Source: Hexactinellida sp. DTS-2022 (Eukaryota; Porifera; Hexactinellida). Taken from it: DNA of 64,000 nucleotides. The stretch is from NCBI GenBank assembly GCA_028753945.1, contig JAPNXP010000006.1:310001-374000 (forward strand). Direction: 5' to 3'. The notes under the pieces were generated by a model, which was not told the DNA's origin, made no database searches, and saw only the letters and a list, made by a program, of their open reading frames with translations. Position numbers and translations under genes: made by a program. Shown piece by piece: positions 1,625 through 54,322 of this stretch (position 1 is its first letter; each line of letters begins with the position of its first letter).

Positions 1625-1649
1625 TAATTACCCATACTAGCGTTATATA

Positions 1650-8088: not shown

Positions 8089-8124
<36 letters not shown>

Positions 8125-17100: not shown

Positions 17101-20100
17101 ATCCGTCCCAAAGCAACCGAGATCGAAGGGCTCGTTTTACTGAAAGTATAATTTCTCTGAAATGAAGTGAGCTAAAAGGAAACTTCCAACACACTAAGAG
17201 TCATTTCCGTCCGAAATACCTTTCTAAAATGGTTTAACACCTTTATAGTGATGATGACGTTACAAAAAATCTAAAATTACAGCTGTACCGATAGCATGCA
17301 TGTTCTTTTGGAGGCACTACCAAACGACAAACCACGAAAAGATAGTGCCTTCAAAGGAACATACTGTCGGCACAGCTGTAATTTTAGATTTTTGAGCTAT
17401 TATTTGAGTTGAGCTACTATTTCTATTTTAGGAAATATGTATTTAGCATTTATTCGCGATTATTAATTTTAAACCCCTTAAGGGGCGATTATTATATGGG
17501 CTAATATTAGAGTAAATACGGTAAGTAATAAATTGTTTGTTTATTTCCATAGCAACCACTGAGGACCTTAGTTATTATATCAGATGACCAAGAATTCATT
17601 AACCTGACGACCCCATACATTTCGTACATTAAAGAGGTAAGTTGTTTAAACTGAATGTCAAAGTGTTGTTTTTGTGTTATGTAATATGTGTGATCCGATT
17701 AATCAGTTAATTATTTATTTTTAATCGTAATCACAAAAATTATCGCAAGTTTTTATTCAGTACATACTACATAGGACAAACAATTATTGACAAGAAAATA
17801 TTTGTAGTGTATAGTTATTATTCCTAGACACAACTATTAATTTCAGATTTTCAGTTAGAACTATTCCTACAGGGACATAAAACATTCCTACTTCATATCC
17901 TGGTTCCCCTATAGTGTGGAGGTGTGTCCCTTCTTTAGAGAATATTCTAACTTCATGATTCCCATAATCACTGATCAGCAAATTCTGTTTTCTGTCCAAA
18001 CAGAAGAAGTCAGCTGATCCTATCTGCATTCCTGTAAGCCGTGTGATTAGGGAGCGTATCTTCTCTCCTGCGTGAGAGAACACGAGTATGCAGGGAGAGT
18101 CAACACAGAGCACGTACACCTCATCTGGTGTCAGTTTAACGTCCCACGGGTATTTCATTGTTTGGTGCGTTATGGATCTTTGGAAGTGTAGGGAGTCATC
18201 TAGAACTTGGATTCTGTTGTTGATAGAATCCGCTACGAACACATCTCCGTTGGTAGAGACGGTGAGTCCGCGAGGGCCATTGAACTGTCCCACACCAGAT
18301 CCCCTACTCCCTAGGCTAGCGACGAGACGCATGTCAGCCTCTATTTTGAATCGGAACACAGCGTCTACTCCTGTGTCCGTCACGTACAGGTTGTCTCGAT
18401 GGATCGCTATACCCCATGGCGCTCTCATGGCTTGGTTTGTGAAAGTATTTAGGAATTCGCCTGTCTCCGAGAAGATTGAGACTCTACAGGAACCCCCTTC
18501 AGCGACATAAATCAGATTTGTGTTCCCATCGATAGCGACACCTTGAGGATACGCGAGCTCTCCAGGAGCATATCCTGTCTTCCCGACAGCTACAATCGGT
18601 CTCATTTGTTCATATCGGGGTACATCGGGCACCTCCTCCTCGACTACCTCTCCCACACCTGCGATCACCTGCTCCAGGTGTCCACAGGTGCCTCGGAACA
18701 CCACGCGTGTCTCGGGCTGGGGTACCCTCACCTCTGCTAGCGCTTGTTCTAGTTCCGCTAGGATTCGCTCCTGGGTCTCTCTCAGTTCGTTCATTTGGAA
18801 GAGACGCTCGGTTTCGGTTTTCAGTGCGATCAGTTCTTGTTCTTTTCGCGCGCGGGTTATGGGCCTAGCGGCTATTTGGTCGCGTGTGTCGCGGTATGTG
18901 GTTAGGAGTGCCACTCGTCGCTGCTGGACACACATAATTATGCGGTCGAACAGTTGGTGTATTTCCAACTCGACAGGGTCTACGGGGTGTATCGGGTCAG
19001 GGAATCGAACGGCCATTTTGTTATTATTTGCTAGTTAGCTAGTTAGTGCTATGGAAAGGAAAGTAGTTTGTTAGTAGAATGCTATAGAGAATGTGTCTCG
19101 TATCTTATAGCAGAGCTAGGTGGTGGAACTGAGTGGAATGTGGCATCTGTTTGTGTGCCGCCTCTTCTGATGCACATGGTGACTCCATCCAGTCAGGAAT
19201 GCAGTGAAAGGAAATACTTTCATTGTGAGTAATCTGGCACAACCAATTTCCAAAAGTATAAGATTACTTTCTTAGCTTAGAATAAAATTTCTTACTTAAT
19301 TACCATTGGAACGTACCTTAAAATATGTGGTATACATTATAACAAATGTTTGATATTTTCTTGAAATATACGAGTTAATCCACTTAGTTCCACCGTCTTT
19401 GCTAAATAATTATTTTGCAATTATGATTATTTTTTAGACGGGATTCTATGAAGAATTTAATGCATCTAAATATAACTTCTGTTGTTGAATATTTGTTACA
19501 GGGAAATATCAGTTAAGGAGTACAAGGTTTATTTCCCCTAGCCTATACAAATGCATGTAAGTGACTCCGGTTAATACAAATTCCGGATAATACGAATATA
19601 TTTCGATGGTCCCCTGGTGTTCCTATTAACAGTCTACTGTATTTTATTTATACTTAAAGTTTTTGCCGATCCCATATTTTCTGTTTTTTTCTGTATTTCC
19701 TTATAATGTTCTTATAACCGGCATAAATTATACAGGCTATATGGCAACCGTTTTCTAGTAGAATGTTCTTATATCCGATATCTACTGTACCCTATTTAAT
19801 TTATGTCGGTTATAAGAACACCGGACCAAAGTTACCCATTTGTACAGACCTGACTGCTATAACTATTGTACATTATAGTAACTGATTGTATAACTATTGC
19901 ACATTATAGGAACTGAATGTACAGGATATATTATGGTCGCACGAACCAACAAGATTCGGTTATTACAGAGCCGCGGAGCCCGAATACCAGACTCTAGGTC
20001 TACGGGTTAAAAACAGAATGCCAGCTGTCTCAGAGAAGATACGACAATTGGATGAGGAATCTATTCTGAAACTGAAGAGTGGACAAATTGACCAATTAAC

Positions 20101-23100
20101 TATCGAGGGTTTCCATATAGGCCCAGGGGATATAAAGACTGTGTTTAAGAAGAAAGAAGAACATTTGTCTTTCTTTGAAGCGCAGTCAGATGAAAATGTA
20201 GGTGTTGTGAGGTTGTAACCGAATAGTTCGGTACAGACTACAGTAGAATGTTATAACATAGTCGAATATACATATACCTATATTATAGGTATATGTATTT
20301 CCCCGAATAAGCGCCCCGGCGCTTATTGTTTTCGTGGGCCAAATTTATCTGAAATTTTTGTGAAAAATCCAGAATATAATATTTAGGTCGGTTCTAATGG
20401 TTTCCAACAAGACTCTACCAACCGTAGTTGACAAAATCAATGGAATTACGTTACAGTGATCTACTAATGTGTTTCAATTTTATGATACCAATGTCATTTT
20501 TATTGACCCGGCGCTTATTCGGGGAAATACGGTATATGTATATCCGACTTGGTTTCTAGCAAAAAATTAAATTTTTAAATTTACAAAAATCAGGTGTAAA
20601 AATATAATTTACGAAGCCATTACGTGACCCCTAAATCAGTTCATAAATACCTGAAATTTTTTCCACAATCATTTTATGACATATAGAAACTTCTTAGGGA
20701 GTCCCCATAAACATTTCAAAAATTCTTTATACAGTTTGTTTACGAACAGGTGTTGGTGTTGTTGAGTGTGTGTCCCACGTACCAGCTTATATCGGAAGGA
20801 GCTCTGCGAGAAGTTACAAACAGGGTTCAGAGACTGCGGAAGTTTATGAAACTATCTCCCACGGACTCGGTTGATATTTGCTATAACATACAGACTGCTA
20901 GATTTGTAGGGTGCAGTCAAGAACTGGTCACTAATGGGAAGTATGCTATTCAAGGTACCTGTTGTTGTTGTTGTTGTTGTCTTTATTAGAAAAGTTTTAC
21001 TGCATTTATTTCTGTATTCTATAATAAGCTGAATATATCTTTATACTACACTAGTATACTCTGGTTCATAGGAACACCAAGGGACCGTCTTAATATGTTC
21101 GTATTATACGGAGTCACTTGCATGCATTTGTATAGGCTAGGGGAATTAAACCTTGTACTCCTTAACCGATATTTCCCTTTTTCGTGTTCCTATTTACGAG
21201 AGTCTACTGCATTTGTTTATTTATTAATTGGTCTGTTTATTAATTTTTTATTTTTTTATTTGTTTGTTTACCAATTGATCAATTGGTCTGTTTATCAATT
21301 GATCTGTTTATTCATTTGTTTGTTTACCAATGTGTCTGTTTACAGGACATCTAACAGCGTGGCTCACCTCGCTATCGCAGCTATTACTAGACTCCTGTGT
21401 GCCCTCAGAACAGACATACTGCATGCTGGAGTGCAGCATAGCTTGGTTAGAAAGCGAGGCAGTCTGCAGACTAGAGGATCTGTTGGAGGAAGAGAAAGTG
21501 AGAATACTGAGCAAACTTAAATGTATACTCACAGACAAAGGTTTGTTATACACCAGGGTTCTCGCTAGGCCTCTATCAAAAGGTGCATGCCCTTCTTGAA
21601 AGCTATTGTACCCTTTATTCACATGTTGTGAGTGGGTATGTACCCTTTGAGTCAATATTATTATTTGAAGGTTTCATCAAATCATTGACAATTTGAGATT
21701 AAGTAATATCTCACTCTCATTTACCCTTACTACGAAAAATCTTGGCGATAACCCTGTTATACACAGTGGTGTTTGTCTGATAGCAGTTGTCTAATAGCAA
21801 TATTGCTCTAATAGCAAGTTATTTCAGTCCTCAAGCGAGCGTTTAATGTTAATTCTGTTCCTTTAATTAGTTTAATGGCAAACAAACTTGGCCAGGGTGC
21901 AAATATGCCAGATTCCAACAAATTGACAAATTTAGTCCGGGTTAATTTAGGCAGTGATAATTTTATCTGGCCTCTTAAAGATCTATAACTAACTTTTTCC
22001 GGGTTAATTTATGCTGTTATATGGCCTCTCTAATAAGTTAAAATGACCTTGCCAGTGCCTGAAAATTACATTAAAAAAAGGTTTGGCTGATATATAAGTA
22101 ATTCCATAGCTATGGTAATTCCTATTTTTATATATTTTAACTATTTTTATATTTTTATATTTTTAGCTGAAAAGGTTAGCAGAGAAGTGGTTAACTGGTC
22201 TTTGGAACTTGTGCGGAATCTGACCAATCAGGTCCCTAACTCCGCATGCTCAGAAGCTATAAATAGACTCGTTTCTAATTTGGGACAAACACAAACACAA
22301 ACACAAACAGAACCGAAATCAAAGACTCGAGAAATCCCAAAGAATTACAAAAATGTTGTAGAGAAGGAAACCAATCTGGAACCTAAAGAAGTTACTTATT
22401 TGGTGTCAGAAATAGAAGCGCGTTTTGTTGAAGTGGCACGAAATGAAGGTGTGACTGTCTCACACGATTTAGAAGGTAATTAGAAGTTCGTACCATTAAG
22501 TAACATTAGTTATTATATACAGTAGAGTAGATCCCACTTAATAGAGCCACCGGTTAATTTGGTCAATGTACAGTCAGGTCTGCTTAAATATGAAACTTTT
22601 TATTATGAACAAGCCCTATGGTCCCAGTTTAACAACTTACATAAGGTTTGTATTAAGTTGAGTTTGCTTATTATAAAGTCTCTCTATTATGAACACAATT
22701 TTTGGTCCCTTGAATGTTCATAATATAAACCTGACTGTATTTGAATAATTGAATAACATTATCAATGATATAATGGTTAATAAATTGGTTTAAATTATTA
22801 CCAGAATAATTGTCCCAATTTCCCTCCTTGAATTCTCTAAAATTTGAACGAGCCCTTAACCAGAGGCAACTGTATCACATTCCAAAGTACCATACGAGTA
22901 TCTACCGTATTTCCTTCTTGTTCCAATTAGTGTATCTACAGTAGAACCTCGTTAATACGTGTTCGTACTAACGACACCATAAAATTCTGCGTCTGATGGG
23001 TGAAGAAAATTGTCAATAAAGGGTTTAATTTCTGCCATAAATGGGAGTTGAAATTTCTTTGTTTACTCACACTTCAATTTCAGTAAAACTGTGAAATCTA

Positions 23101-25976
23101 ATTCCATTGTTTCAACTTGCGATAATTAACTGTGTTCGTACTAACGAGGTTCTACTGTTACCGTATTTCCTTATTGTTCCATTAGATTTCCAGCACCAGT
23201 TATCAGGTAGACTATTGTCCCTATTTACCTCAACCGAATCGAGACTGTTATTCGATATAAAAAGCTTTGCAAACACCTCAATCACGCTCACAACAGAGAG
23301 AAGAGAGATTCTACGAAATTCCTGGTTAGATACTCTCACGCCTAAAATCGCTTTGTGGTTAGATCAATTCCAAGTGCTTGATCCGTTACTAAGGAACTTT
23401 GGGGAAGAATTGAATTCGAAATGTTACCCAATTGGATATGTGGAAGATAAGAAAATAAACAAACTTATTACAGAGAAAACATTCCAGAAGGTATTTTGGT
23501 AACTACAGAGACAAACTTAAATTCTTAATTCGAACTTTCATAAATTCGAATACACATTTTAATTCCCTTGAAATCGTAGTATTAATTCCTTATAAATCCA
23601 CCCTATAATTCGAAATCCCTTAAAGCGGCCTTTTACTTATTCGGACAAATTTTTATTCCCTTGAGTGTTCGATTTAACAGGTGTTGACTGTACATACTTG
23701 CCTTAATATAATAATGAATTCCAGGATTTTCGGATTTTTTATGAAATTTATTGGTTTGCCAAGGATTTCCATAGCTAAATATACCTGAAAATAGATATAG
23801 TACTATAGTTTATATTCACTTTTCAAGTTATCTTCTTGAAAATACCATAATTTGTACTCATTTTGCATATTTATTAAATTAATTATAAGTCATTATAAAG
23901 CTAAATTCCTGATTAATTGGTATATTTAAAGAGAGGTGTAATAACATGAGTAATATATGCCAAAATAATTTCTAGACACAAAATAATCACTAAAGGCTCC
24001 TAATTATAAGCTATAGATATTACTTTAGTTGGACTTAATTAAGCATTCATTTAGCAATCGATACAATATCTATTCTGCACCTGACTTGTTAATTAGTTGC
24101 GTATCGAGTCTCCTCCCATTGCATTCTATGATATTCTAGAATATGTGAATCGTACGAATTCCATTCTTATAAGTTATTAATTAATTAATTAACTCTTACA
24201 TAACTACAGATCGAATATCATAATTTAAATTAATTAATTGATATTTTAGAAACTACAGTCAACTCCTGTTATAACGAAGTGCTCGGGACCGTAGTTTCAT
24301 TTCGTTATAACCGGAGTTTGTTATAAACGGATTTCGTTATAACCGAGTTCGTTATAACAGGAGTAAAATCAATAGCTTAGATATGGGAAATAAATGACTT
24401 CGTTATAAGCGGAATTTTCGTTATAACCGAAGTTTTGATAATGTAATAAGCAGGTACTTCGTTATATCCGACTTGGTTATAACGGGAGTTGACTGTATTT
24501 GTTATTTAGCCTAAGTAAATTGTAATAAAATGTTTTTTTGTTGGTATATTCGTATTTTTTTGTTTGTATATTTGTTATTAAATCTATTATATATTATATA
24601 TTTAGCCTAATGCCACTCGGTTCCTACGCCTACAGCTGGGATTGATTGAGAGCAGAGATTCTACTGGACCAATCAGCTGCTTCGCTACTGTAGAACTCAA
24701 TGAATCACAGATTGCTGTCGTTATGTTAGAGAACCCTAAGGGGACTAGCATTCCTGTTGACGATGTTGTTGCTAACGTAAGTATAGTGGTGTTCCCTTAA
24801 TACTAATAGCAATTGCTCTAATAGAAAATATTGCTTTTATTTTAGATCAAGAATATATTTGGATTACAGAGCACAACTGAATTGAGTAAAGTATTGAAAA
24901 GTTTGTAGTGTAATTTCTCAATTTATTAATAGTTAAGCTATCTTTTGTTTATTACTTATTTGTTTGTATTTTGTAGAGGATTGTAATTTAGCGTCGAAAA
25001 CAGTCCAAATACAGCAGAGCAAGGTAACTACAGTAGAACTAATAAAAAACAAATTTTTAAATACAGTATAACTCGGTTATAACGTACCCCCTCGGGAATA
25101 GAATAAGTACGTACTAACCGAGTTTACCCTACATAGAAATACATACTGCTTTATAAACTTGGTTAAATTAGTACGTACTAACCCAGGTACACTATAACCG
25201 AGTTATAATGTACTCTATACAAACAACAACAACAACAACAACAACAATAGTAGTATAACCTAATATATCCGAGTTTTACTGTATTAATTAATTAATCCAT
25301 TTAGTCTGGAGAAGTTACAGTCACTTTGAGTGAGAAAGAAAACACAAACAAATTCAGTTTTGTGAACATACAAACACAGAATATGCGAGAGAATACAAAA
25401 GCCACTGTTCTATTAGAAAACCCGATAGGACACAATCTAGTGTTGTCGCGTACTGAATTAGTTAAAAAGGTGTGAATTAATGTTTATACAGTCGACTCCG
25501 CTTAATAGAGTCACATCGGGACCAGGTTACTTTGACCCGATTAAGCGGAGAAATCTATTAACCGGTGGCTCTATTAAGCGGAGTATACTATATTTACAAT
25601 TTTTCAAAAGGTCTTACATATATATCGACTAACACCTTTTCAATAAATAAAACCTGCTTCGCAAATGCGAATTTTATGTTAAATATAAATTATCTTCCCA
25701 AAGCCTAAAAATTACATTATAAAAGTTTTGGCCAATATATAAGTAATTCCTTGTTAATTTCAAATTTATTTAAATTTTTCTTTACTTTTAGATCAAAATG
25801 GTTTGTAATATCACCAGTAATATTAAACTCTATCAAGGTAATATTAACTATATACAATTAATATATCTACACATTCCAATGTTACAATCCTGTATCTAGG
25901 AACATCTCTATTACCATACTCCTGGGATTCAGTGGAATATCTATCTGGAAAAACCATTTCAGTTCAATTAGCATAA
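1650..25976 (+). CDS. IARS1: Cytosolic isoleucyl-tRNA synthetase, 24 exons
   Basis: Class I synthetase that charges tRNA-Ile in the cytosol. Exons: 1650-1870, 2405-2539, 3232-3418, 4097-4398, 4635-4720, 4933-5138, 5601-5791, 6328-6528, 6912-7106, 7572-7887, 15635-15925, 16295-16552, 17553-17636, 19910-20197, 20750-20954, 21346-21540, 22167-22475, 23186-23490, 24606-24776, 24846-24900, 24977-25023, 25305-25469, 25792-25837, 25900-25976. All junctions keep phase, giving about 1511 residues (human about 1262). Visible motifs: HIGH-type HYGH at 59-62; editing-domain WTTTPWTLP at 227-235 and GTGVVHQAP at 326-334; KMSKK at 608-612, the KMSKS loop; then the anticodon-binding region. The C terminus has two LLENP-type repeats, in exons 19 and 22, as in the animal enzyme. 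Exons 16-18 encode extra sequence absent from the human protein. Introns 10 and 13 contain other genes on the opposite strand. The identity is certain from continuous similarity; only the 5' UTR is unplaced. Confidence 0.97.
1921..2390 (+). repeat. TTTG/TTTA microsatellite filling IARS1 intron 1
   Basis: Almost pure TTTG runs with interspersed TTTATATTTTG and a duplicated TTTACTCCTATTG word. Open frames across it are compositional artefacts. Confidence 0.9.
5160..5540. repeat. CAAA/TAAA then TTTG microsatellite in IARS1 intron 6
   Basis: AAAC/AAAT runs switch orientation to GTTT runs near 5460, so the tract can fold into an imperfect hairpin. Confidence 0.8.
8358..8363 (-). promoter_or_regulatory. 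Candidate polyadenylation signal of the GABA-B-like gene
   Basis: The minus strand reads AATAAA about 100 nt past the stop codon at 8464. This is the first canonical hexamer after the stop that I found, but no transcript evidence is available. Confidence 0.45.
8464..15141 (-). CDS. GABA-B-like class C GPCR, nested antisense in IARS1 intron 10
   Basis: Seven-transmembrane receptor of the metabotropic GABA-B family. Exons, in transcript order: 15141-15139 (ATG only, then gtaagt), 14664-14373, 13776-13576, 13114-12856, 12525-12170, 11620-11282, 10414-10084, 9459-9198, 8829-8464; phases agree and give 802 residues. Residues 1-20 form a hydrophobic signal peptide. An extracellular Venus-flytrap domain follows (to about 425), with the family's GPACSPAAN and [11 protein letters not shown] segments and FFRVIPSE. 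Seven hydrophobic helices run from about 436 to 713, with CNLDLW before TM3 and [12 protein letters not shown] before TM6. The cytoplasmic tail carries a short coiled coil (about 735-765, [12 protein letters not shown]), as in GABA-B subunits, where it mediates dimerisation. The ligand cannot be inferred; sponge members may not bind GABA. The first exon is the least certain part. Confidence 0.9.
9635..9774. mobile_element. Family 10 hairpin element (AATCTAAAATTACAGCTGTG)
   Basis: Long inverted repeat, arms about 55-60 bp, from AAAAAATCTAAAATTACAGC to GCTGTAATTTTAGATTTTTT. Nearly full copies: 17263-17393, 33109-33238 and 45020-45163. Partial copies: 33360-33425, 40551-40636, 45360-45395, 45453-45483, 57742-57801, 58058-58155 and 58265-58360. 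Shared outer flanks (CACCTTTATAGTGATGATGA; GAGCTATTATTTGAGTTGAG) show that the hairpin is the core of a larger element. Confidence 0.85.
10457..10640. mobile_element. MITE family 3 (CAGTCGACTCCGC)
   Basis: Ends CAGTCGACTCCGCTTAATAG / CTATTAAGCGGAGTCGACTG; interior repeats of TTAATCGGGTC. Other copies: 13397-13499, 14056-14124, 25488-25589, 26706-26808, 36162-36347 and about 57880-57983. Short and long versions coexist, with deletions in the middle. Confidence 0.85.
10688..11017. mobile_element. MITE family 5 (CTCGGTTATAACGTACC) interrupted by a family 6 MITE
   Basis: Outer element with GTAGAACTC... and GTTATAACCGAGTTCTACTG ends and the interior word GGTACGTTATAACC. It is split by another MITE at 10793-10949. 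Other family 5 copies: about 25065-25212, 34774-34924, 44727-44800 (partial), 50247-50395 and 59007-59160. Confidence 0.8.
10793..10949. mobile_element. MITE family 6 (CAGTGGTGTTCGC), nested insertion
   Basis: Ends CAGTGGTGTTCGCTAATAGC / CGAACACCACTG with a TA on both sides; inserted inside the family 5 copy above. Other copies: 2636-2779 (variant), 21773-21880 (partial), 35915-36075, about 43945-44105, 47751-47896, 56035-56103 and 63720-63800. Confidence 0.85.
12641..12709. mobile_element. MITE family 7 (CAGTCGAAACCGG), 69-bp minimal copy
   Basis: Ends CAGTCGAAACGGGTTTTTCT / AAAAAACCGGTTTCGACTG. It is one of the shortest elements here. Longer relatives: about 16665-16850, 53706-53890 and 54892-55041, with partial copies near 40464-40520 and 49225-49650. 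Confidence 0.75.
13893..14030. mobile_element. MITE family 4 (CAGTAGATGCCGG)
   Basis: Ends CAGTAGATGCCGGTTATAAG / CTTATAACCGGCATCCACT; interior GTTCCCGACGATG. Other copies: about 30233-30360, 35482-35622, 38232-38330, 41942-42082, 47920-48053, 49257-49456, 50024-50161, 58420-58600 and 63037-63103. Confidence 0.8.
14168..14341. mobile_element. MITE family 2 (CAGTAGACTCTCG)
   Basis: Terminal inverted repeats CAGTAGACTCTCGTTA / AACGAGAGTCTACT, interior with CACCAGGGGACCGTC and TTGCATG. Related copies: about 9851-9988, 15987-16142, 19500-19639, 21058-21210, 32350-32522, 37689-37857, 39895-40062, 43410-43500 (partial) and 55306-55482. Confidence 0.85.
14647..14795 (-). repeat. Triplicated 3' splice-site segment of the GABA-B-like gene
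   Basis: Three tandem copies (about 47-58 bp) of a segment that on the minus strand contains TTTCTTCTAG followed by AACATTCTATTCGTACTAA. Each copy therefore carries an acceptor plus the first codons of the signal peptide. Only the copy nearest the coding exon (acceptor before 14664) opens a long frame; use of the middle acceptor runs into a stop after about 25 codons. Confidence 0.85.
17752..17757 (-). promoter_or_regulatory. Candidate polyadenylation signal of NHL gene copy 1
   Basis: AATAAA on the minus strand about 30 nt beyond the stop codon. It lies just outside the sequence shared with copy 2, so the two copies must use different 3' ends. Confidence 0.5.
17784..19016 (-). CDS. Intronless coiled-coil/NHL-repeat protein, copy 1 (in IARS1 intron 13)
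   Basis: Single-exon gene of 410 residues, antisense inside an IARS1 intron. Residues about 15-120 are charged and heptad-like, predicted coiled coil, as in TRIM proteins. A GTCGHLE segment near 130 links to NHL repeats over about 140-405, with recurring GVAI, LYVTD, GDVFVAD and NLLISD strands expected to form a beta-propeller for protein or RNA binding. There is no RING or B-box, so it is not a full TRIM ubiquitin ligase. ATG context is aaaATGGC. A TATA-like box lies about 90 nt upstream and an AATAAA about 30 nt downstream. It is nearly identical to the gene at 31052-32272. Function unknown. Confidence 0.92.
   Translation of the reverse strand: MAVRFPDPIHPVDPVELEIHQLFDRIIMCVQQRRVALLTTYRDTRDQIAARPITRARKEQELIALKTETERLFQMNELRETQERILAELEQALAEVRVPQPETRVVFRGTCGHLEQVIAGVGEVVEEEVPDVPRYEQMRPIVAVGKTGYAPGELAYPQGVAIDGNTNLIYVAEGGSCRVSIFSETGEFLNTFTNQAMRAPWGIAIHRDNLYVTDTGVDAVFRFKIEADMRLVASLGSRGSGVGQFNGPRGLTVSTNGDVFVADSINNRIQVLDDSLHFQRSITHQTMKYPWDVKLTPDEVYVLCVDSPCILVFSHAGEKIRSLITRLTGMQIGSADFFCLDRKQNLLISDYGNHEVRIFSKEGTHLHTIGEPGYEVGMFYVPVGIVLTENLKLIVVSRNNNYTLQIFSCQ
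19101..19110 (-). promoter_or_regulatory. TATA-like box of NHL gene copy 1
   Basis: The minus strand reads CTATAAGATA about 90 nt upstream of the ATG. The same word sits at the same distance in copy 2 (30958-30967), inside a flank shared by the two copies, which suggests the promoter was duplicated with the gene. Confidence 0.55.
20290..20535. mobile_element. Family 12 MITE (ATTTCCCCGAATAAGCGCC)
   Basis: About 245-bp element ending in TTTCCCCGAATAAGCGCC and its inverse. A second copy is at about 32727-32962, reversed. The ends resemble a MITE type seen widely in invertebrates (from memory; not checked). Confidence 0.7.
21346..23490 (+). other. IARS1 exons 16-18: unassigned insertion
   Basis: Three exons (21346-21540, 22167-22475, 23186-23490) encode about 270 residues (codons 1056-1325) between the anticodon-binding region and the C-terminal repeats. 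The human enzyme has only about 40-55 residues there. Splice phases (1, 1, 1, 0) join smoothly to IARS1 exons on both sides, so this is not a separate gene. The sequence looks helical and leucine-rich, with a QT-repeat linker (about codons 1155-1165). I do not recognise the family. The last 25 or so residues may correspond to the ordinary linker. Confidence 0.8.
22571..22737. mobile_element. MITE family 9 (CAGTCAGGTCTGC)
   Basis: Ends CAGTCAGGTCTGCTTA / TAAACCTGACTG, interior GAACAAGCCCTATGGTCCCA. Other copies: 3458-3613, 7361-7529, about 29829-29997, 43500-43700 (rearranged) and 53025-53190. Confidence 0.8.
24256..24495. mobile_element. MITE family 8 (CAGTCAACTCCTG), 240-bp copy
   Basis: Ends CAGTCAACTCCTGTTATAAC / GTTATAACGGGAGTTGACTG with TA flanks. 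The interior is a string of TTCGTTATAA words in both orientations. Fragments near 28220-28280. Confidence 0.85.
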
Positions 25977-29638: not shown

Positions 29639-29677
<39 letters not shown>

Positions 29678-37119: not shown

Positions 37120-38713
37120 ATGGAGACAGACAACGCGCCTTTAAAGTTCGGAGACATAATTTCTCTTTTCTCGAATTCGGAACCCGGAGCAGCTGTGCCC
37201 CGAGATGGGCATCTCGCGTCGCTAGGGTGAGACACACAAATATGTAGAGTTATTGTTTGTTTAATTGTTAGTTTGTATGTTAGTTAGTTTGTAGTTTGTT
37301 TGTTTATTTATTTGTTGATTTGCTTGTTGATCTGTTTGTTTGTGTGTTAGTTAGTAGTTAATTCATTAGTAGTTAATTAGTTAGTTAGATAGTTTGTTAT
37401 TTGTTTGTTTGTTTACCACTTGTTTGATTGTTAGTTTGTTCGTTTTTGGATTGTTAGTTTGTTTGTTTATGCCAGCGATCCAAACCTTTTTCAACCGTGG
37501 ACCCCCTATAGTCATTCTGTGGACCCCCTCCCATTGACCGTAATACATCTTGTGGACCCCAGGTTGGGAACCACTGTATTATGCGTTTGTTGTTTAGATT
37601 AGTTGATGAGAGATGTGCTGTGAAACACATGCGAGACTTACCAACTTGTCCACCGGATAAATTCAGTGGTAAAATACATTATATTATACAGTAGACTCTC
37701 GTTAATAGGAACACGGTTAAGGAAAATATCGGTTTAGGATTACAAGGTTTAATTCCCCTAGCCTATACAAATGCATGCAAGTGACTCCGGTTAATACGAA
37801 TTCTGGATAATACGAACATATTAACACGGTCCCCTGGTGTTCCTATTAACGAGAGTGTTATTGTGATTATGTTTATTTTTGTTGTTTATTTGCTAGATTG
37901 TTTGTTCAAAATTTGTCCTCAATTAAAGTACACAGCCAGATCCCAATGTGAGAGGTCAGAAAGAATATCTTCGAGAACAAAGAATGTAGTCGAACTAGCT
38001 TACTACCTCAAATGGAGAGTAAGTTGTAAATAACAACAAACTACAAATACACAAATACTCAAATTGACTAACTATCTAACATACTAACGAACGAATGAGC
38101 GAACGAACGAACAAACAAACAAATTAACTAGTATACAACATCATTATATAGTAAACAAATAAACTTCCAACTAACCAACAAACAAACAAACAAACAAACA
38201 AACAAACAAACACACGAACCAATTAACTACAGTGGATGCCGGTTATAAGAACATCGTCGGGAACTGCATATAATATTCTTATAACCGACATTTTCTTATA
38301 ACCGGTGTTCTTATATCCGGCATCTACTGTAGTAAACAACAATACCATTTAGTAAAACAAACAAACATACCAACTATTCAACAAACAAACTAACAAAATA
38401 ACTACTAAACAACAACACCATATAGTAAAACAAACAAACAACTATTTGTTTTTTAGAAAGCAGCAGATCTGGAAGAAGAACAGAACGAAAAACAATCCTC
38501 AAAAGATCAAGGGGTTATATTAAAATACGGAGCAATTTGTCAGGTATATATTCACATTTTCACACCTCAATACTTGTGTTTCACATTCCTAACTATTCCA
38601 TAGTTACTGCATGTGAAAAGTGGAAAGTTTCTAACAGTAAACAAACAACAAGCGGCCTTTGTTGTTAAATCTGCTATGAGAGTATCTCTATGTTCCAAGG
38701 GTAGCGAAGTGAG

Positions 38714-38745
<32 letters not shown>

Positions 38746-40869
38746 GCTTACTTGTCAATTTGTTGTTTTGTATGTTGATTAGTTGGTTTGTTTGTTTGTT
38801 TACTATATGGTTGGCTTTAGTAGTTATTTTGTTTGTTCATTTATTTGTATGTCTGTTTGTTTGTTTTACTATATGGTTGTTCTCTAGTAGTTATTTTGTT
38901 TGTTCATTTGTTGATTAGTTGGTATGTTTGTTTGTTTACTAAATTGTTGTTGTTGTTTAGTAGTAAATTTGTACGTATGTTAATTATATTGTATGTTTGT
39001 TTATCTAGAACTGTTGGCTATACGTCAGACCAATATTTAAGAGGAAAGCACTCGGGGATGAGGTGAGAGAGTTATAGTTCTAATTGGAACTAACATTATA
39101 ATTACTGCTCTGTAATTAGGTGCTGAACTGTGATAAAGTGACTCTAATTCCGTATCATGCCGGCCAACCCGTACATGTGTCTGATAGATGCCTGCATGAT
39201 TACCCAGAGTTATATGAGGTTAGTTGTTGTTGTTTGTTGTTTGTTAGTTTGTTAGTTAGTTAGTTAGTTAGATTGTTTGATATTTTGTTTGGTTGTTTGT
39301 TAGATTGTTTGATTTTTTGTTTGTTTGTTTGTTTGTCTGTTTTTAGGTAGGTAGTTAGTTAGTTAGTTAGTTAGTTAGATTGTTTGATATTTTGTTTGGT
39401 TGTTTGTTAGATTGTTTGATTTTTTGTTTGTTTGTTTGTTTGTCTGTTTTTAGGTAGGTAGTTAGTTAGTTAGTTAGTTAGTTAGATTGTTTGATATTTT
39501 GTTTGGTTGTTTGTTAGATTGTTTGATTTTTTGTTTGTTTGTTTGTTTGTTTGTTTGTTTGTCTGTTTTTAGGTAGGTAGTTAGTTAGTTAGTTTGTTTA
39601 TTTGTTTGTTTGTCTATTTTTTAGGTAGGTAGTTAGTTAGTCTGTTAATATAATGTTGTTAATGTTGTTGTTGTTGTTGTTGTTTACAGGTGAATGCAAT
39701 GCCGCCCCAGCCTGGCTCTCCTAATGGAATCAGTTGGAAGCTATATTTGTTCATGGATCATTTCGATGATAAGGAATATAACCTCAAAGGGGTAGGTTGA
39801 TAGATACCAAATTAAAAAAACCCGTGATATAGTAATATGTTCCTAATCTTAGAGACACTCCGTTATATGCTCTTCCAAACCCAATTTTAAATAATAGATT
39901 TTGTAGAAACACGGATAAGAGAAATATCGGTTAAGGAGTACAAAGTTAATTCCCCTAGCCTATACAAAAGCATGCAAGTGACTCCGGTTAATACGAATTC
40001 CGGATAATAAGAACATATATCGACGGTCCCCTGGTGTTCCTATTAACAGAGTATCTACTGTATACATTACTTAACACTGAACTTTAATCTTGTCTATATA
40101 ACATTCTCTATAACATTTCTCTATACGTAGACTATAACATTTCTCTATAACATTTCTCTATAGCTTTATTCTACTTTACTAGGGCAGTGTAATCCGTCTC
40201 TTCCACGCGGAGCAAGAGAAGTTCCTGACCTGTGACCCTCACGGGGAGGGAGAGGAGTACAAGAAAGCTAAAGACTTTAATAAAGACAAACTAGGGCACA
40301 GTGTGTTCTTAAGATATTCTGCCCGTCCAAACCCCACTGAAGCAACCTCTAGCAAAGCCATGTGGGAAGCTCAAGTAAGCATTTGATTGGTTTGCTGTAC
40401 TCACTCACGAGTATAAATAGAGGGAACTGTATTCAAATGCTGTTAATTTTATTAAACTAAATACAGTCGAAACCGGTTTTTTTCTAACCAATTTATTTGA
40501 ATGGTTTAACTAAAATGGTTTAACAACTTTAAATTGACGATAAAAATCTAAAATTGGAAAAATCTAAAATTACAGCTGTGCCGACAGCGTTTTCCTTTGA
40601 AGGCACTATCTTTGGTGGTTAGTCGTTTGATAGTGTAAGTTAACTTCATTTATAATTCTTATTTGTAGTTGGTTGTACAAGATCAACCGTTTCGAAGTGG
40701 CTCAGCTAAATGGAACGGTTCTTCAATGAGATTCAAGCATTTAGCTTCCAGAGAGTATTTAACCGTAGCTCCATTCGGATTGGCTTGTGAAAATGCTAGA
40801 TTTGCAGGCCCCGTTAACGGCCCTAAGCCTATTCACTTAGAGGATATTCCTAATAAAGATCAGGTAGGG

Positions 40870-40903
<34 letters not shown>

Positions 40904-43900
40904 GTTTGTTTGTTGTTTGGTTGTTTGGTTGTTTGTTGTTTGTTTGTTTGGTTGTTTGTTTGTTTGTTTGTTTGGTTGTTTGTTAGTTTGTTTGTTTGTT
41001 TGTTTGTTTGTTTGTTAGTTTAATTGTTTGCCTGTTTGTTAGTTTGTTTGTTTCTTTGTTAGTTGGTTTATTTGTTTTTGTTAAATTTCTGTTTGTCTAT
41101 TTGTCTATTTGTTTCTTTGTTGGTTTGTTTGTTTCTTTTTTAGTTGTTTGTTTGTTTTTGTTAAATTTCTGTTTGTCTATTTGTCTGTTTGTTTACTCGT
41201 TTGTTTGTTGTTCTGTTGTTTATTTATTTGTTCCTATCTATTTATAGACAGATCACGTGCTAACGATTGGTCTAAAAAAGGCGCCGTTCTTCAAAGATGA
41301 GCCCAAACATGACGAGCCACAAGATCTCTCAAAAGACTTAACTATTTTCCAAATATTCCCAACTAGAAATGAAGGTGACAACGTAAACATATACAACAAG
41401 GCTTATATTAGACTTTATCATGCTGCCACTGATTCCTGGGTTAAGTCAACTAGCATCCCTCTGTGCGTTAATAACACCATGGTGAGTTGTTGTTGTTGTT
41501 GTTGTTGTTGTTGTTATATGAATTTTGTTTGTTTGAACTTGTTTATACCAGTAGCTTACAGTAAACTCCAATTATAGTAAAAACTTATAACAAATTTATA
41601 AATACAGTAATACCTCATTAGTATGAACACGGGTAATACGAACACTATTTCAGTCCCCTTCAAAGCCTTTTCAATACAAATGATATTGGTTAATACTAAT
41701 TCCGGATAAGGCGAACACGTTTTGACGGTCCCATGGTGTTCGTACTAACGAGGTTATACTGTACTCCCCAAACGGATAAAGCAATTGATTTTACTCTACT
41801 TTTAACGAAGTAAACCAAAGGCCCCTTTGACTTCGTTTTATATTATCAAAGGGACTTTTGACTTCGTTTTATATTATCTTAATATCTTATTTCAGTTCAT
41901 ATAATTTCAGTTTTTGAATGTACACTCACATATTTCACATACAATAGATGTCGGATATAAGAACATATCGGTTAAAAAACATTATTTTGGAAAACCGTTG
42001 CCATATATCTCTATATAATTTATGCCGGTTATAAGAACATTATGTGCAGTTCCCGACGATGTTCTTATAACCGGCATTCACATATTTAACATATTTAACA
42101 TATTTCCCTGTTGCCATGTAGGTGGGTCTCTCCGGCAGTTTGGAAGACAAAGAAGCGTTCGCGCTTTTATTCGTCCCAACCCAGGAAGTCAGGGATCTAG
42201 ATTTCGCGACGGACGCAGCTAAAATGATTAATTCTATGAGCACACGATGGGAAGAGTTGCCTCCTAATGAGCTCAAGATTCTAATACAGTTGTTAGAGAA
42301 ATTAGTGCTATTCCTTTGTAGGAAAGAGGGTACGTTACAGTGTATTATACAGCCATTTGTAAATACGCTCCTATTCCTGGTATGATCCAATTACCATACA
42401 TCTAAATCACAAATTAATGTTAAGGATAGGAGAGGATTCCAAATTTTCGCGCTCCTAAATTCAAATTTTCCAAAAATCATGCTCCAAAAGGAGCGTCTCG
42501 CGCTCCTGGATAATTCCTTGGTTACAGTGTATTATACAGCCATTTGTAAATACGCTCCTATTCCCTTATTACCAACAGGGTTTTATACATAAGGAACTGT
42601 ATACATAAGGAAGCTATTTAAAAAACAAAGACAATAATTTGAAGAAACTTAATAGGAGTTTCGACTTATTCCCAACATGGTTTATCCAGGAGCGCGCCAT
42701 ACGCCTAGAGGCGTATAAATTGGGATATGTTTGCGTTTAGGAGCTATTTATACTTCTGTTTATGTGAAAAAAATCCATTTTAACTTTCACTTCAATTGAA
42801 ATTGAATTAACTTTCAGTTTGACTTCCATATTCCGGGACTACGAAGTGTTTTACTTAATTAAATTTAAACTTATCATAACCTATTAACGAGGGATATTTA
42901 TTGTAAAAATATTTAGAATTCTGTTTGTTTGTGTGTCACTTTATCATCAAATATATTTATAATTCTGTTTGTTTGTGTGTCTATTTATCATCAAATATAT
43001 TTATACTTCTGTTTACTAGTGTGTCTATTTTTCATCAAATATATTTATACTTCTATTTACTAGTGTGTCTATTTTCATCAAATATATTTATACTTCTATT
43101 TACTAGTGTGTCTATTTTCATCAAATATATTTATACTTCTATTTACTAGTGTGTCTATTTTCATCAAATATATTTATACTTCTATTTACTAGTGTGTCTA
43201 TTTTCATCAAATATATTTATAATTCTGTTTACTAGTGTGTCTGTTTATCAGCTGTTATTATAGGCAGCACTGAGGATGCTTTGAAAGTTGAGCTTATTCA
43301 GAACGAGGCTGTGACCCGTAGACAGAAGCTAATCCGGGAGCAGAATATTCTGAAGGAAGTCAGTTAGCTGATTATTCACATTATTTCCGATATCCATAGT
43401 CCATATGTACAGTAGACTCGTTAATAAGAACACCAGGGGATCGTCGGAATATGTTCGTATTATCCGGAATTCGTATTAACTAACCGATATTTCCCTTATT
43501 ATTACCTTATTAAGACTTCATAATAAGCGAACTCAACTTAATACAAACCATATGTAAGTTGTTAAATTGGGACCATAGGGCTTGTTCATAATAAAAATAT
43601 GTTCATAATAAGCAGACGAATATTGTTCACAATAAGCAGACGAAAACTGTCATATTAAGCAGACGAATATTGTTTATATTAAGCAGACCTGACTGTTTAC
43701 AATGTATGTTCATATTAAGCATATTACTACGTCTTATATCTGTAGGTATTTAGGCTATTAAAGAGGCCGTATGACATTAACCAAGATAAGAGAGTAACAA
43801 TGAAGAACCTCCCTGATAAGAAGTTTGAAGCTAGTCTGCATTTATTTAAGCTTTGCTACAGATTGATACGACATTCTCTCGATGGGTACAGGAAAAATCA

Positions 43901-46900
43901 AGTTAGTAAATTCATATATTATTATATTATATTCTAGTGAGTACTTTGTTAACAAGTCGCATTTTGCACTAAGTTTGCTTGCTAATAGGCGAACTTGATA
44001 TTAGAGGAACAGAATTAACATTAATGCTCGCTTGGGGACTGAAAATAACTTGCTAATAGAGCAATATTGCTATTAGGATAATTACTATTAGGTTGAACAC
44101 CACTGTCCTGAATTTGTTGTTAGAATAAACTGAGCAATATATAAGTCATTTTATTAATTTTACTTGTTGACTAACATACAACAACAACGACAGCAAAACA
44201 TACAAACAGCAACAATAACAAACAAAAATGTTTACTGTACTATTGGTTATACCTTATAGGAGACAACAAACAACAACAACAACAACAAACAATATATTTA
44301 CTGTACTATTACTTATATGAGACAACAAACAACAACAAACAAACAACAAACAACAAATAATATATTTACTATACTATTGCTTATAGGAATATGTTGCAAA
44401 GGATTTCTTTTGGTTCATGCAACAACAACTTGGTAAGGGAATAAACGCAGAAGAGACAATGGCTCATTTAGTGAAACAGAATGCTAAAGTTCTAGATAAC
44501 TATATGGGTGATGAACAAATAAATATGTTCTTAGACTTATTGAACAAACACAAGCATGCTAGATATCTACAGCATTTGTGTGCTCTATGTGTTATGAAAA
44601 ATAGCGATACACCAATATCTCAATCTGTACAAAAACTGGTGAAAAAGAATTTGTTAGATGTGCCAAGCCAGAATATACTCATTAAGATCATGTTAGTTTT
44701 CCTATAAGGACCGATTTAATATGAACTACAGTAAAACTCGGTTAATCGTACCCCCTCGGGAATGGAATAAGTACGTACTAACTGAGTTTACACTATTTGC
44801 TTTATACATAGTATATAACTTTGTATTTTCACACAAGGAATTATCCAGGAGCGCGAGACGCTCCTTTTGGAGCGTGATTTTTGGAAAATTTGAATTTAGG
44901 AGCGCGAAGATTTGTAACATTCTCCTATACCGTAACATTAATTTGTGATTTAGGCGTATGAGAATTGGATCAGAGCAGGATTAGGAGCGTATTTACAATT
45001 GGATGTATTTATTACTCTGCAAAAATCTAAAATTACAGCTGTGCCGACAGTATGTCCATTGCATGCGCATTGGAGGCACTATATTTAGGTGGTCTGTTGA
45101 TAAATATAGTCATAGTGCCTCCAAAAGAAAATGCTGTCGGCACAGCTGTAATTTTAGATTTTTCATTTTTGCGTTATTAAAATTTTTGCTAAATTGTCTA
45201 CGAATCGCACACTAATGTAATTGTTCTCATCCATTACGAACAATTAAAGGAATTTATGGATATTTTATAATGATGTAGTTAACACACTTTTTATAACCTT
45301 GTAATTAACATATTTTGACGAGGATTAGGAGCGTACTAGTGTTTGTATAGTATTACTCTGCAAAAAATCTAAAATTACAGTTGTGCCGACCTTGTAATTA
45401 ACATATTTTGACCAGAATTAGGCGCGTACTAGTGTTTGTATATTATTACTCTGCAAAAAATCTAAAATTACAGCTGTGCCGACCTTATAATTAACATATT
45501 TTCACACCTGTAGGTATGAGGATGACGACTCAGATTTAGAGGACAGATACCAACTGAATGTCCCTTGGAACGAATCTTTGGACAGAATAGGTCAAAAGAA
45601 ACTTTGCGAAGACAAGACAAACTCTAAACTAACTCGAGTATACGAATATTGGAAATGGCAATTAGAGTTGTATTCAGCTTTATGTTATGGGAGACATTAC
45701 TCGGCTATTGATCATCCTATTCTTAAGGAACAGTTAACTGTACAAACCGTATTCCAGTAAGTATACAGTATATACCTTATATGAACATAAGTATACGTAC
45801 AATAAGTATACAGTAGATATGTTATAAGAACATGGTTAGGGTAAACCATAATTTATATAATAAATGTGAAAATGTGAGATATTGTTTTAATGTTTACTTT
45901 ACAAATTAATGAACGACAAAACTAATACAAAAGCTAACTAAATATTTGGAGACCGAAATTCTTGTTCTGTGACACACAAACTAATCTCCCGTTTGTATCT
46001 ATAGCTATTCCTTGGGGCTGATAGAACATTCCTTGTTCGTGTCCCTCTCTTCCTATGGTGTGTAGGAGGTTGCCTGCTGGGGAGAATACACGAATGGAGT
46101 TTGTGCCTAGATCGCTTATCACGATGTTGTTATTTGTGTCCAAACAGAAGAACCATGGCCCTAACACATCCATTTCTCGTCCTCTGCTAATGAGAGAGTG
46201 TAGCAAGTCTCCCTCTAGTGACAGTACCAGCATACACTGATTCTTGTTTGGACACAGTACGTATACGCGGTCATGCGATATCTTGACGTCATATGGTCGT
46301 AATATTGCCTGATGTGTGATGTCCCTCACATGGTTTAGGTCTGTGTCGAATACACAGATTCTGTGGTTATCGCAATCTGCTATGAACACCTGTCCGTTGG
46401 GATCCGTTGTTAGTTGTCTGGGAAATTGGAATTCTCCGTTATTCGATCCCATCTTACCAATCTGCTTAACGAAGCTAAAATCGGTTAGCGAGTATTTGCT
46501 TATAGTGTGTCTCCAGTCGCTACTAACATACAAACTATTCCCATGAATAGCTATGCCCCATGGATAATTCAACTGTCCGTAACCTAACCAATTGAGATAC
46601 TCTCCTGTTTCGGATAATATCTCCACTCTGTGATTGTACCGATTAACTACGAATATCTGATTTGTAGCTTCGTTAATGGCGACACCACATGGCACACATA
46701 ACTCGCCAGGAGCTAAACCTTGTTTCCCAGTAGCGACAGTGGGCAAATGGAATGTGGCGTAGTTAGGCAGCCCTACTGGTACCAGTGCAATCTTTCCGAG
46801 ACGGGAAATGCTCACTTCGAGGTCTCGTGTGTCGCACTGCCACTTGAATTCTGTCTGGACTGGTATGTTCGTTCTCAGTTCCCTCAGTTTCTGGTCAATT

Positions 46901-49900
46901 TCTGAGACCGTTTTATCGCGGACGGACTTTAGGGGGTTCTCCTTCAAATCGGTTAGGAGGTGTGTCCGGGCGGTGGTTAGTTGTGTGTCCATTTCTTGTC
47001 GAGCCACCTCTGCGGCTCTCTTCTCCTCGCGTGCGTCGCGGACCTGAGTCAGCAGCTGAGCTCTGCGGAGATTCAGTAGCGCTATGAGGCCGTCTATGGC
47101 TCTGTTTATTCGTGTCTCTACGGGGTCTGCTGCTGGAGGGGGAATGGGATAGCGAGCTGCCATTTGATTGTTTGTAGAAGATTATTTGAATAGTTTAGGT
47201 ATGAATTGGTTGCAATGGATAATATGTGTATTTATAGCTGTGTTATGATTTGTTTGTTGCAACAACAACAATGATGATATGATGATGTGAGTATAATGTG
47301 GTAGTAAACAACAACACGAGTTATACACGTGTATGTTGTAATGTCTCGTTACTAGGATGCTGTAAGGAATGTGGTTTAAGTTCTTATATTCTGTCCTAAT
47401 TGCAATTCAGTATAGAATAACAAGATATCATATTTACAAAGTGCAACCCAAGATACATGAACTTTCCTTAAGAGTATAATTTGATATTCCAACAACAACC
47501 AAATATAGTTTTTCTTACCATCCAAAATAATTAATAAATTTTCGCTATTGAAATTGAACGCCCCTATAAAACTGGGGTATTTGTAATCTCAATACAAGAT
47601 AACCTCGTTAGTAGGAACACAGTAAATAGAACACTATTTCAGTCCCCTTCAAAGTCTCTTAAATACAAATCATATTGGCTAATGCGAATACCGGATAAAG
47701 CGAATATATTTTGACTGTCCCCTGGTGTTCGTACTAACGAGGTTTTACTGTGGTGTTCGCGTAATAGCAAGTAGCATTTTTCACCAAATTTACTAATAGG
47801 CGAACTTGCTATTAGAGGAACTGAATTAACATTAAATGCTCGCTTGGGGATTGAAAATAACTTGTTAATAGAGCAATATTGTTATTAGGCGAACACATAT
47901 ACAGTAGTATAATACAGTAAATGCCGGTTATAAGAACATTCTATTGGAAAACAAATGCCAATTTGCCATTTACCCTTATATACTTTATGTCGGTTATAAG
48001 CACACTATATACAGTTCCCGACGATGTTCTTAGTATAACCGGTATCCACTGTATTGTATTTCCTTAGATGCATGAAAGATACAGATCTCCCGCTAAGCTT
48101 AAGGGCTGTATACTGCAAACTGCTACAAACTATGTATTTGGATGTGAATCCACAAACCCTTATATCCCCCATTGAGTATGCTAGACTTTGGCAAGATATT
48201 CCACAGGAAATGGACCATGTTATTAACTCGTGAGTTCCTAATACAGTATTATACTATGTAATATTCTGTTATATACAGTAGAACCTCGTTAGTACGAACA
48301 CAGTTAATACGAATGTCCGGATAAGACGAACAAACAGTTCCATAAAATCAGGTCCCTACAATGGCTATTCAATGGATATTACTCCGGTTAATGCGAACTC
48401 CGGATAAAGCGAACAAAATTTACCGTCCGTTGGTGTTCGTATTAACGAGGTTCTACTGTACGTATTGAAATACTATAGCACTACTCTGTACAATAACAAT
48501 GTTTGTAGAAAGTTAATGCGGGAGGTGCCTCAGCCAATAGAGCTGTTAGAAGAAGAGTTACAAGATAGCGAGCACGATAAGAGAGTATATGAGTGTCTAA
48601 TTGAGACTACTGAGTATATAAAAACAGAGCTATCTCGGGAATCCTGCTTGTTAGGCTCAAGTCTGGAACAGGACCAGTTTATATTCGAGGTGAGACAGAC
48701 AACTAGTCTAATAGACAAATAAACAAATAGCCTAATAAACAAACCAACAAACACAAACAGACAAATACATAAACAGACAGACAAACAGCTTAATAAACAA
48801 GCCACCTAGCCTAATAAACAAACAAACAAACAAACAAACAACCAACTAACCAACCAACCAACCAACAAACAAATAAACAAACAAATAAGCAAGCAAATGA
48901 ACACAAACTCTGACAACAAATATATGACAGTATATACAAATCCTATTTCTCCTGTATAGTTATTCCCATTTACTGTATAGTTATTCCTATTTCTCCTGTA
49001 TAATTATTCCTATTTCTCCTGGATAATTATTCCTATTTCTCCTGTATACTATAGTTAGTGCACACGGCAGAGATGCTAGTTAAGTTCGGATTCTATTCTT
49101 TCGACAAACTCCTTAATCTCACGGATACTCTGCTGGGTCTCGTGGAGAAGAACATGATAGACGTGGTTACTCCCAAGGAAGAAGATTCCGTTAAGGAAAA
49201 CATAGAGCAAAAGGTTATACAGTAGACACCGGTTTCTCTAACACTGGTTTTATAATTACAGTAACTACAGTAGAGCCTCGTTAGTACGAAACCGGATATA
49301 AGAACATGCCGATATAAGCACACCGGTTATAAGAACATATCGGATATAAGCACACTATGTTGGAAAACGGTTGGCATATACCCTGTATAATTTATGTCGG
49401 TTATAAGAACATCAAGTGCAGTTCCCGACGATGTGCTTATAACCGGCATCCACTGTACAGTATAAACGGGTTTCTTCTAACACTGGTTTTTTATATCAGA
49501 TCTGTTATTTGTAACTAACTATTTATTCAAAATGTGTAAGAAGTTACAATTTTGTTTTATCTTCATCGGTTTATTCTAACTAGTATATGATTTTCTTACT
49601 TTATTTCCATGCAAAGAATTGGTTTGAAAAAACCGGGTTTCAGGTATCTTATTGTGAGCTTTTTATTATTAATGGTCCCAATTAAAAAACTTACATAGGG
49701 TATTATTTAGTTGAGTCCGCTTACTATAAACAACAACAACAACAACAACTTATAATTATCTACATTATATTCCTTTAGGAGATGATCCATACAACTTATC
49801 TGGAAGTTCTAAAGATTATAGATTTCGTAATGAACCTCAGACTAGATATTCGTCTCTCTATTATTCTAGTTTTATTCAAAAACAAATATAAACAAAAAGA

Positions 49901-51968: not shown

Positions 51969-52015
<47 letters not shown>

Positions 52016-54257: not shown

Positions 54258-54322
<65 letters not shown>

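Follow-up and report, generated by a model that had tools for sequence, protein, structure and literature searches.

A 64,000-nucleotide (nt) stretch of a glass sponge genome (Hexactinellida sp. DTS-2022; assembly GCA_028753945.1, contig JAPNXP010000006.1, positions 310,001 to 374,000 of the forward strand), referred to here as the window, carries three intronless genes coding for proteins with an NHL propeller. From comparisons of their sequences with those of their relatives throughout the genome, we consider it likely that the three genes are members of a repertoire encoded in the germline, comprising hundreds of recognition proteins whose ligand face is hypervariable. An earlier note, made from the window alone, had raised a recognition repertoire as speculation. 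This has become the best-supported part of its proposal, since the ratio of nonsynonymous to synonymous substitution rates (dN/dS) on the propeller face is 1.8-4.1 and the variable positions overlap with the RNA-contact residues of LIN41.

Copy 1 (17784..19016, minus strand, 410 amino acids [aa]) and copy 2 (31052..32272, plus strand, 406 aa) belong to one subfamily, A, and copy 3 (45934..47163, minus strand, 409 aa) to another, B. As the earlier note had claimed, all three open reading frames are intact and consist of a single exon. Their NHL repeats score 79-90 bits against a Pfam cut-off of 20, whereas no RING or B-box was detected in the three proteins at E <= 1 in a Pfam scan; compared with the TRIM-NHL (RBCC-NHL) architecture, the propeller is thus present and the RING and B-box are missing. 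No effector domain was found in the three proteins. Judged by eye, the N-terminal segment is probably a coiled coil. A linker cysteine, which had been described as part of the common architecture, is found in both kinds of protein in the window and is absent from two copies of a further subfamily, C (L004 and L005). Copies 1 and 2 encode proteins that are 90% identical; their DNA matches at 97% over 925 nt, including 208 nt upstream of the ATG without gaps, and at 92% over the last 509 nt, where the match stops 1 nt past the stop codon. This agrees with the shared upstream DNA, the TATA-like box and the loss of similarity at the stop codon without a poly(A) tract that had been reported for this pair. 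Copy 3 is 41% identical to copy 1.

To judge from the rest of the genome (112.4 Mb, 18 contigs), the three genes have many relatives, and the proposal of a large family is borne out: at least 382 distinct full-length NHL loci are free of stops, 365 from searches with five proteins and 17 from a search with the NHL model. These counts are a lower bound, as the best 99-106 of 1164-1239 candidates were scored for each protein and 150 of 2268 for the NHL model. The five protein searches gave 522 matches, of which 411 were judged full length and without stops and merged into the 365 loci, partial matches being excluded; 21 of their 386 full-length loci contain stops. Three loci (C15:307878, C1:14904570 and C16:1003607) have one TGA in one match and were counted as intact, a shorter match being stop-free. 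The search with copy 1 returned 30 best matches, copy 1 included, that are 80-100% identical, and copy 3 has 18 other near-full-length copies at >=75% aa identity. More than half of the loci (225 of 382, 59%) lie within 1 Mb of contig ends, a zone that makes up 32% of the genome. The outermost 5% of the contigs holds 23 of the 382, no more than its proportionate share. Contig ends are not proven to be chromosome ends, because five consecutive units of the telomere repeat TTAGGG had 0 matches in the genome. Many contigs have middles free of the family, and contig C1 carries copies across one whole half. Dense arrays occur at C17:0.29-0.51 Mb (29 copies in 0.22 Mb, median spacing 3.7 kb) and at C1:13.62-13.80 Mb (23 copies in 0.18 Mb, median spacing 6.3 kb). 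All 43 B-box candidates in the genome were scored and only 20 were matches; it is therefore the form without RING and B-box that has expanded.

Two further observations concern the makeup of the family. Of the 20 B-box matches, 13 are located within single open frames of 503-816 aa (C12:5.86-5.91 Mb, C11:12.99 and 13.02 Mb, C4, C7, C15 and C18), which are possibly intronless full TRIM genes. In four B copies (C14:367943, C15:479558, C13:5058383 and C10:271686), residues ~39-90 of the N-terminal segment are missing with nearly identical break points, apparently through a recurrent internal deletion.

Among 30 A copies that are 80-90% identical to copy 1, diversity is concentrated at positions that recur from blade to blade, namely those immediately preceding the first strand (x-x-P-x-G) and those following the second (AD-x-x-N-x-R). 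As many as 13 different residues occur at a single site. For comparison we used five subfamilies, A-E, set by search identity (A-B 41%, C and E 33-39%) and comprising 29, 10, 10, 10 and 8 copies (67 genes); the 30th A copy, L026, was dropped as it has no ATG at the usual start. At an entropy threshold of 1.4, 36 of 264 columns are hypervariable in A and 25 in B, and 21 of these are shared compared with 3.4 expected (P 9e-18). All 13 hypervariable columns of subfamily C are also hypervariable in A; L057, L060 and L061 entered this comparison from an internal start. The hypervariable residues are rich in R, Y, N, S, H and Q, and W accounts for 6% of them and for 0% elsewhere. Every copy is a distinct haplotype (29/29 in A and 10/10 in B).

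The residues of the DrLIN41 NHL domain that are in contact with RNA are given in PMC5908797. We placed them on the sponge proteins via the human TRIM71 sequence, with which 14/14 contact residues agree in letter and spacing. Using an entropy threshold of 1.2 and with L057, L060 and L061 taken whole, the alignable contact positions that are hypervariable number 13/13, 12/14, 11/13, 8/12 and 8/12 in A-E (P 1.2e-12 to 2.5e-6), and the overlap peaks at zero shift in each of the five subfamilies. At the stricter threshold of 1.4, the overlap was 13/13 in A, 10/13 in B and 7/13 in C. We conclude that the hypervariable positions, as aligned, coincide with the LIN41 RNA-contact residues.

The face positions also differ from the rest of the protein in how their codons have changed. 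When the face of each subfamily was defined from the others, dN/dS estimated on trees for A-E was 3.07, 2.86, 1.80, 4.12 and 2.26 at face positions, compared with 0.75, 0.60, 0.40, 0.50 and 0.43 off the face. Similarly, the ratio of nonsynonymous to synonymous differences per site (pN/pS) at sites defined in the other subfamily is 3.06 in A and 2.52 in B, compared with 0.70 and 0.45 elsewhere. Left out of these counts were three chimeras (L002, L003 and L007), L006, which equals L028, and single members of other groups (L049-L051, L053 and L054). Bases 1 and 2 differ in 0.29-0.45 of comparisons on the face and in 0.03-0.07 off it. C/T third-base changes are silent in NNY codons, and in A-E such differences amount to 0.052, 0.000, 0.082, 0.050 and 0.079 on the face and to 0.047, 0.065, 0.046, 0.046 and 0.063 off it. 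Third bases are free to change, because silent sites are saturated between A and B (mismatch 0.503; 10 of 29 A copies and 10 B copies). Fast first and second bases beside silent bases that change at near background levels argue against both relaxed constraint and a targeted mutator, and relaxed constraint was not supported as an explanation, given a face dN/dS above 1. We conclude from these codon comparisons that diversifying selection acts on the propeller face; many intact paralogues and selection on the binding surface, two of the properties of a positively selected repertoire, are both found in this family.

Several points weigh against this interpretation. Taken over the whole gene, pN/pS is below 1 (0.94 in A and 0.89 in B), and for the propeller alone it is 1.12 and 0.88. 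The silent rate is higher on the face than off it in C (0.082 versus 0.046) and in E (0.079 versus 0.063), and in the LIN41 comparison the control shifted by -1 gives 7 in subfamily D compared with 8 at zero shift. The pairwise and parsimony counts are crude, recombination violates the assumptions of the trees, and all data come from one genome. Moreover, the subfamilies share ancestry and cannot count as fully independent replicates, the hypergeometric P assumes independence of the columns, and the variable positions were placed on the face by sequence alignment.

Considering that face dN/dS exceeds 1 in all five sampled subfamilies, non-self recognition is the most likely pressure on these proteins. 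The proteins are probably intracellular, as no signal peptide is apparent by eye, and each would be a modular recogniser with a constant oligomerisation part and a variable binding part. In the mechanism that we propose, the conserved N-terminal segment, probably a coiled coil, would serve dimerisation, and the six-blade NHL propeller would present a ligand face to which every blade contributes the loop preceding strand A and the one joining strands B and C, with about 25-40 hypervariable positions. Diversifying selection would act at these positions via ordinary point mutation, and recombination between copies would reshuffle blades and may keep the scaffold uniform. Each copy would most likely bind a different non-self molecule, which may be pathogen RNA or protein or allogeneic self, and the effector step may consist of sequestration or of partner recruitment through the coiled coil. 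We tentatively extend this to a wider picture, which we hold to be possible and short of probable: an early-branching animal whose germline holds an anticipatory library of NHL propellers, several hundred and perhaps as many as a thousand. The RNA-binding residues of LIN41 would have become a hypervariable site in these propellers, with a different RNA shape or protein read by each copy.

Two other functions for the diversified face would explain much of the same evidence, and we regard each as unlikely, though well worth weighing. The first is a self/non-self repertoire, for allorecognition or gamete compatibility, that is not directed against pathogens. Hundreds of dispersed loci exceed the known allorecognition systems; on the other hand, control of fusion would be plausible in a sessile sponge host, and the HNWD propellers of Podospora, a close mechanistic analogue, are described in PMC12222747 as recognising allelic HET-C variants. 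The second, to which we give about the same low weight, is that the proteins are RNA-binding regulators, each copy reading a different endogenous or transposon RNA in an arms race with transposons or transcripts. The identity of the diversified residues with the LIN41 RNA-contact residues is in its favor, as is the median net charge at the hypervariable columns (2 in A, 2.5 in B and 4 in C, the latter from 7 copies), which is near that of TRIM71 (+4). However, the net charge spans -3 to +7 in A and -3 to +6 in B, and besides R the residues are rich in Y, N, S, H, Q and W, so that RNA binding by every copy is not evident. Since TRIM71 itself has +4 at the same columns, charge is no argument against an RNA ligand.

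Diversifying selection via ordinary point mutation is also to be set against a locally targeted process, i.e. a diversity-generating or hypermutation system that creates the variation, which we consider very improbable. Change is concentrated in few codons, 70 of 197 amino-acid changes in five close pairs differ by 2-3 bases, and silent change on the face is slightly up in C and E, as would suit such a system. Yet silent C/T third bases are near or below the off-face level in A, B and D and far under bases 1 and 2 in all five subfamilies, and a codon-targeted mutator was not supported, on account of the near-background level of these bases in face codons. Neither of the marks of a target of a diversity-generating retroelement, adenine-directed change and raised silent change, was found beyond the slight rise of silent change in C and E, and W, E, K, Q and M, which lie outside the AAY set and cannot arise from an AAY-template retroelement, are present.

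The flanks of the genes bear on how the family has spread. Upstream of copy 1, the promoter-like region common to copy 2 (19017..19224, minus strand) has a TATAAG at 19104-19109 and the motif CATTCC at 19135-19140 and 19196-19201; the corresponding region of copy 2 (30844..31051, plus strand) has TATAAG at 30959-30964 and CATTCC at 30867-30872 and 30928-30933; and that of copy 3 (47164..47388, minus strand), which is conserved among ten other B copies, has TATAAA at 47231-47236 and CATTCC at 47366-47371. The TATA-like boxes of copies 1, 2 and 3 are thus located at -93, -93 and -73. Downstream, the short 3' flank of copy 1 (17714..17783, minus strand) contains AATAAA/ATTAAA 26, 58 and 64 nt past the stop, and ATTAAA occurs 34 nt past the stop of copy 2 (32307..32312, plus strand) and 42 nt past that of copy 3 (45886..45891, minus strand).

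These features recur within A and B. In flank comparisons of 80 of the 406 pairs in A and all 45 in B, identity is 0.87-0.97 over the 175-200 nt nearest to the ATG on its upstream side and ~0.7-0.8 over the next 75-125 nt, and it reaches a background of 0.5-0.6 by about -300 to -350. On the downstream side, A copies cease to be similar immediately, as was also traced for the 3' end in 30 loci, and B copies within ~75 nt. In 28/29 A copies and 10/10 B copies, a TATA box is present in the interval from -130 to -60. The motif CATTCC, which we take to resemble a TEAD/M-CAT site, has an upstream density of 7.6 per kb in A and 2.6 in B, compared with 0.6 and 0.2 downstream; it is found within 350 nt upstream of 26/29 A copies, 9/10 B copies, 3/3 chimeric copies and 0/4 others. 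A poly(A) signal occurs <=150 nt past the stop in 33 of the 39 A and B copies, compared with 26 of 87 control windows. The marks of a retrocopy, absence of a promoter and a poly(A) tract at the 3' edge, were found in neither subfamily. No fixed element ends were seen in the A and B flanks, where upstream similarity fades stepwise; target duplications were not searched for.

Since the upstream region is conserved, with TATA boxes and poly(A) signals and without a poly(A) tract, the sampled A and B copies look like autonomous genes, probably transcribed on their own, that were copied as DNA and are not retrocopies. The suggestion of DNA-level copying together with the promoter, in place of simple retrocopying, is upheld for these two subfamilies. 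Against a general rule stand four copies outside A and B, with a TATA box in 2/4 and CATTCC in 0/4, and the pair L004/L005, for which no common upstream 200 nt were apparent by eye. The weakest alternative, a retrotransposed or mobile family tolerated in introns whose variation is the neutral drift of relaxed copies, would suit the single-exon, dispersed copies, their intronic location in the window and the existence of partial copies, but is hardly credible given that 365 of the 386 full-length loci from the five protein searches are stop-free, that the upstream region is conserved in A and B without a common 3' tract, that silent bases on the face change more slowly than first and second bases and that copies occur in arrays.

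In addition to point mutation, exchange between copies contributes to the family. Locus L007, on contig C14, matches A at 0.83-1.00 up to alignment nt 900, at 0.79 in the next window and at 0.60-0.65 beyond nt 975, where A copies are 0.85-0.90 alike among themselves. L007 is clearly a chimera by this comparison, and the pattern of L002 is like that of L007; since these two are chimeric, recombination between copies does occur. In A, informative sites next to each other show more compatibility than under permutation (a value as low was reached in 4 of 500 permutations), and in B neighbour compatibility is not significant (93 of 500 permutations). In pairs with a significant flank match within a subfamily, flanks differ by ~3-35% and fourfold coding sites by ~1-9%, the flank being the more diverged in most pairs and not in all (exceptions are, e.g., L012/L018 and L040/L042). 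Many of these flank matches are probably dispersed repeats, since they are also found in A-B pairs. The idea that coding regions are homogenised among copies is weak, both for this reason and because the flank is not always the more diverged. The sharp 3' end of similarity probably reflects very short 3' ends combined with homogenised coding regions, and not the edge of a copied unit.

Among known systems, the sponge genes are closest in fold to the TRIM-NHL proteins (LIN41/TRIM71, Brat, Thin and TRIM2/3). The best match of copy 3 in PDB is Thin (6d69, E 9.5e-37), the ligand face is the same by alignment, and the linker resembles by eye that following a TRIM coiled coil. In contrast to these proteins, the sponge family has no RING or B-box that we could find, a single exon, hundreds of copies and hypervariable contact residues. 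Strict TRIM-NHL membership fails for lack of RING and B-box, and the propeller itself is of the TRIM-NHL kind. In lamprey VLRs and other repeat-scaffold repertoires, variable residues occupy fixed positions of the scaffold, as they do here; VLRs are assembled somatically, whereas the sponge genes are complete in the germline. HNWD NLRs are encoded by few genes.

According to PMC12222747, the HNWD NLRs of Podospora anserina have a beta-propeller in which four codons of each repeat are hypervariable and under diversifying selection, at the surface where interaction is predicted, and the repeats undergo concerted evolution. They differ from the sponge family, with its many genes and diverged NHL blades, in that WD40 repeats 80-100% alike within a gene are fused to NACHT and HET. 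The finTRIMs of teleost fish, according to PMC2657112, are likewise a large TRIM-related multigene family, clustered on several chromosomes, with positive selection on the recognition domain; they number 84 genes in zebrafish and have a B30.2 domain with RING/B-box kept, instead of an NHL propeller in several hundred genes. In the best reading of these analogies, the logic of a hypervariable-face repertoire would be comparable to that of fungal HNWD propellers and fish finTRIMs on a different scaffold. Within sponges, PMC10282587 reports single-exon AIG1 genes of the glass sponge Aphrocallistes vastus that were duplicated in tandem and are suspected of a role in immunity; they have another domain, and one cluster comprises 75 genes. 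For Halichondria panicea, a figure legend on pattern recognition receptors in PMC8242945 names the NHL repeat, and the legend describes no repertoire or hypervariable face. Among the titles and abstract openings that our searches of the open-licence literature listed, we found no prior report of an NHL recognition repertoire.

In the wider picture that we hold to be possible, the animal would have inside its cells the equivalent of an antibody library, based on a fold that binds RNA. If our main interpretation is correct, the few hypervariable recognition repertoires that are known would be joined by one on a new scaffold, and the family would show how the ligand site of an RNA-regulation fold can vary at set positions within an unchanging frame. 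With the variable positions defined per residue, a panel of natural variants can be screened for ligands directly, and in our judgement the family offers an entry point to recognition repertoires in a little-explored animal.

The three genes lie within introns of plus-strand host genes, as had been proposed, and flanking exons identified with Pfam and partly by eye confirm the hosts. Copy 1 is in an intron of IARS1 (1641..24797), with tRNA-synt_1 exons at 1641, 5601 (below cut-off) and 7552, DUF5915 exons at 19910 and, below cut-off, at 20711, and a weakly supported last exon at 24606 (E 0.097). Copy 2 is in an intron of PDAP1 (29429..34211), which has a PP28 match at 34047 and two first exons, at 29429 and 30443, recognised by eye and without a Pfam match. 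Copy 3 is in an intron of ITPR (37105..64000, continuing beyond the window end), identified from MIR at 40183 and RIH_assoc at 63242, with the first exon near 37105-37227 and several others placed by eye. Copy 2 has the orientation of its host and the other two run antisense to theirs, in line with the two antisense copies noted before. The preference for introns that the earlier note had suggested was not supported: gene bodies make up 86% of the window, the chance of finding 3/3 copies in introns is ~0.63, and copies form arrays elsewhere. We rejected intron preference as evidence, since under these odds the location of the three copies carries little information.

Smad MH2 domains, which are animal-specific, gave clear matches in the genome. 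No Wnt match was obtained in a genome search whose controls gave no signal either; two reports describe glass sponges as lacking Wnt (PMC10282587; PMC10280926), which the missing match would fit, as a lead only. No tRNA genes and no Rfam matches at the gathering score were found in the window. A tandem array of ~30 copies of an 89-nt unit (96% matches) lies at 59789-62458, inside the ITPR gene body. Finally, a short inverted-repeat, MITE-like element with ends like GGTGTTCGTACTAACGAG is spread over the whole window (e.g. at 598-764, 30051-30215, 32361-32514 and 48285-48449), one of these elements being located just downstream of copy 2; its ends have 33 matches at <=1 mismatch in the 64 kb compared with 0.00 expected.

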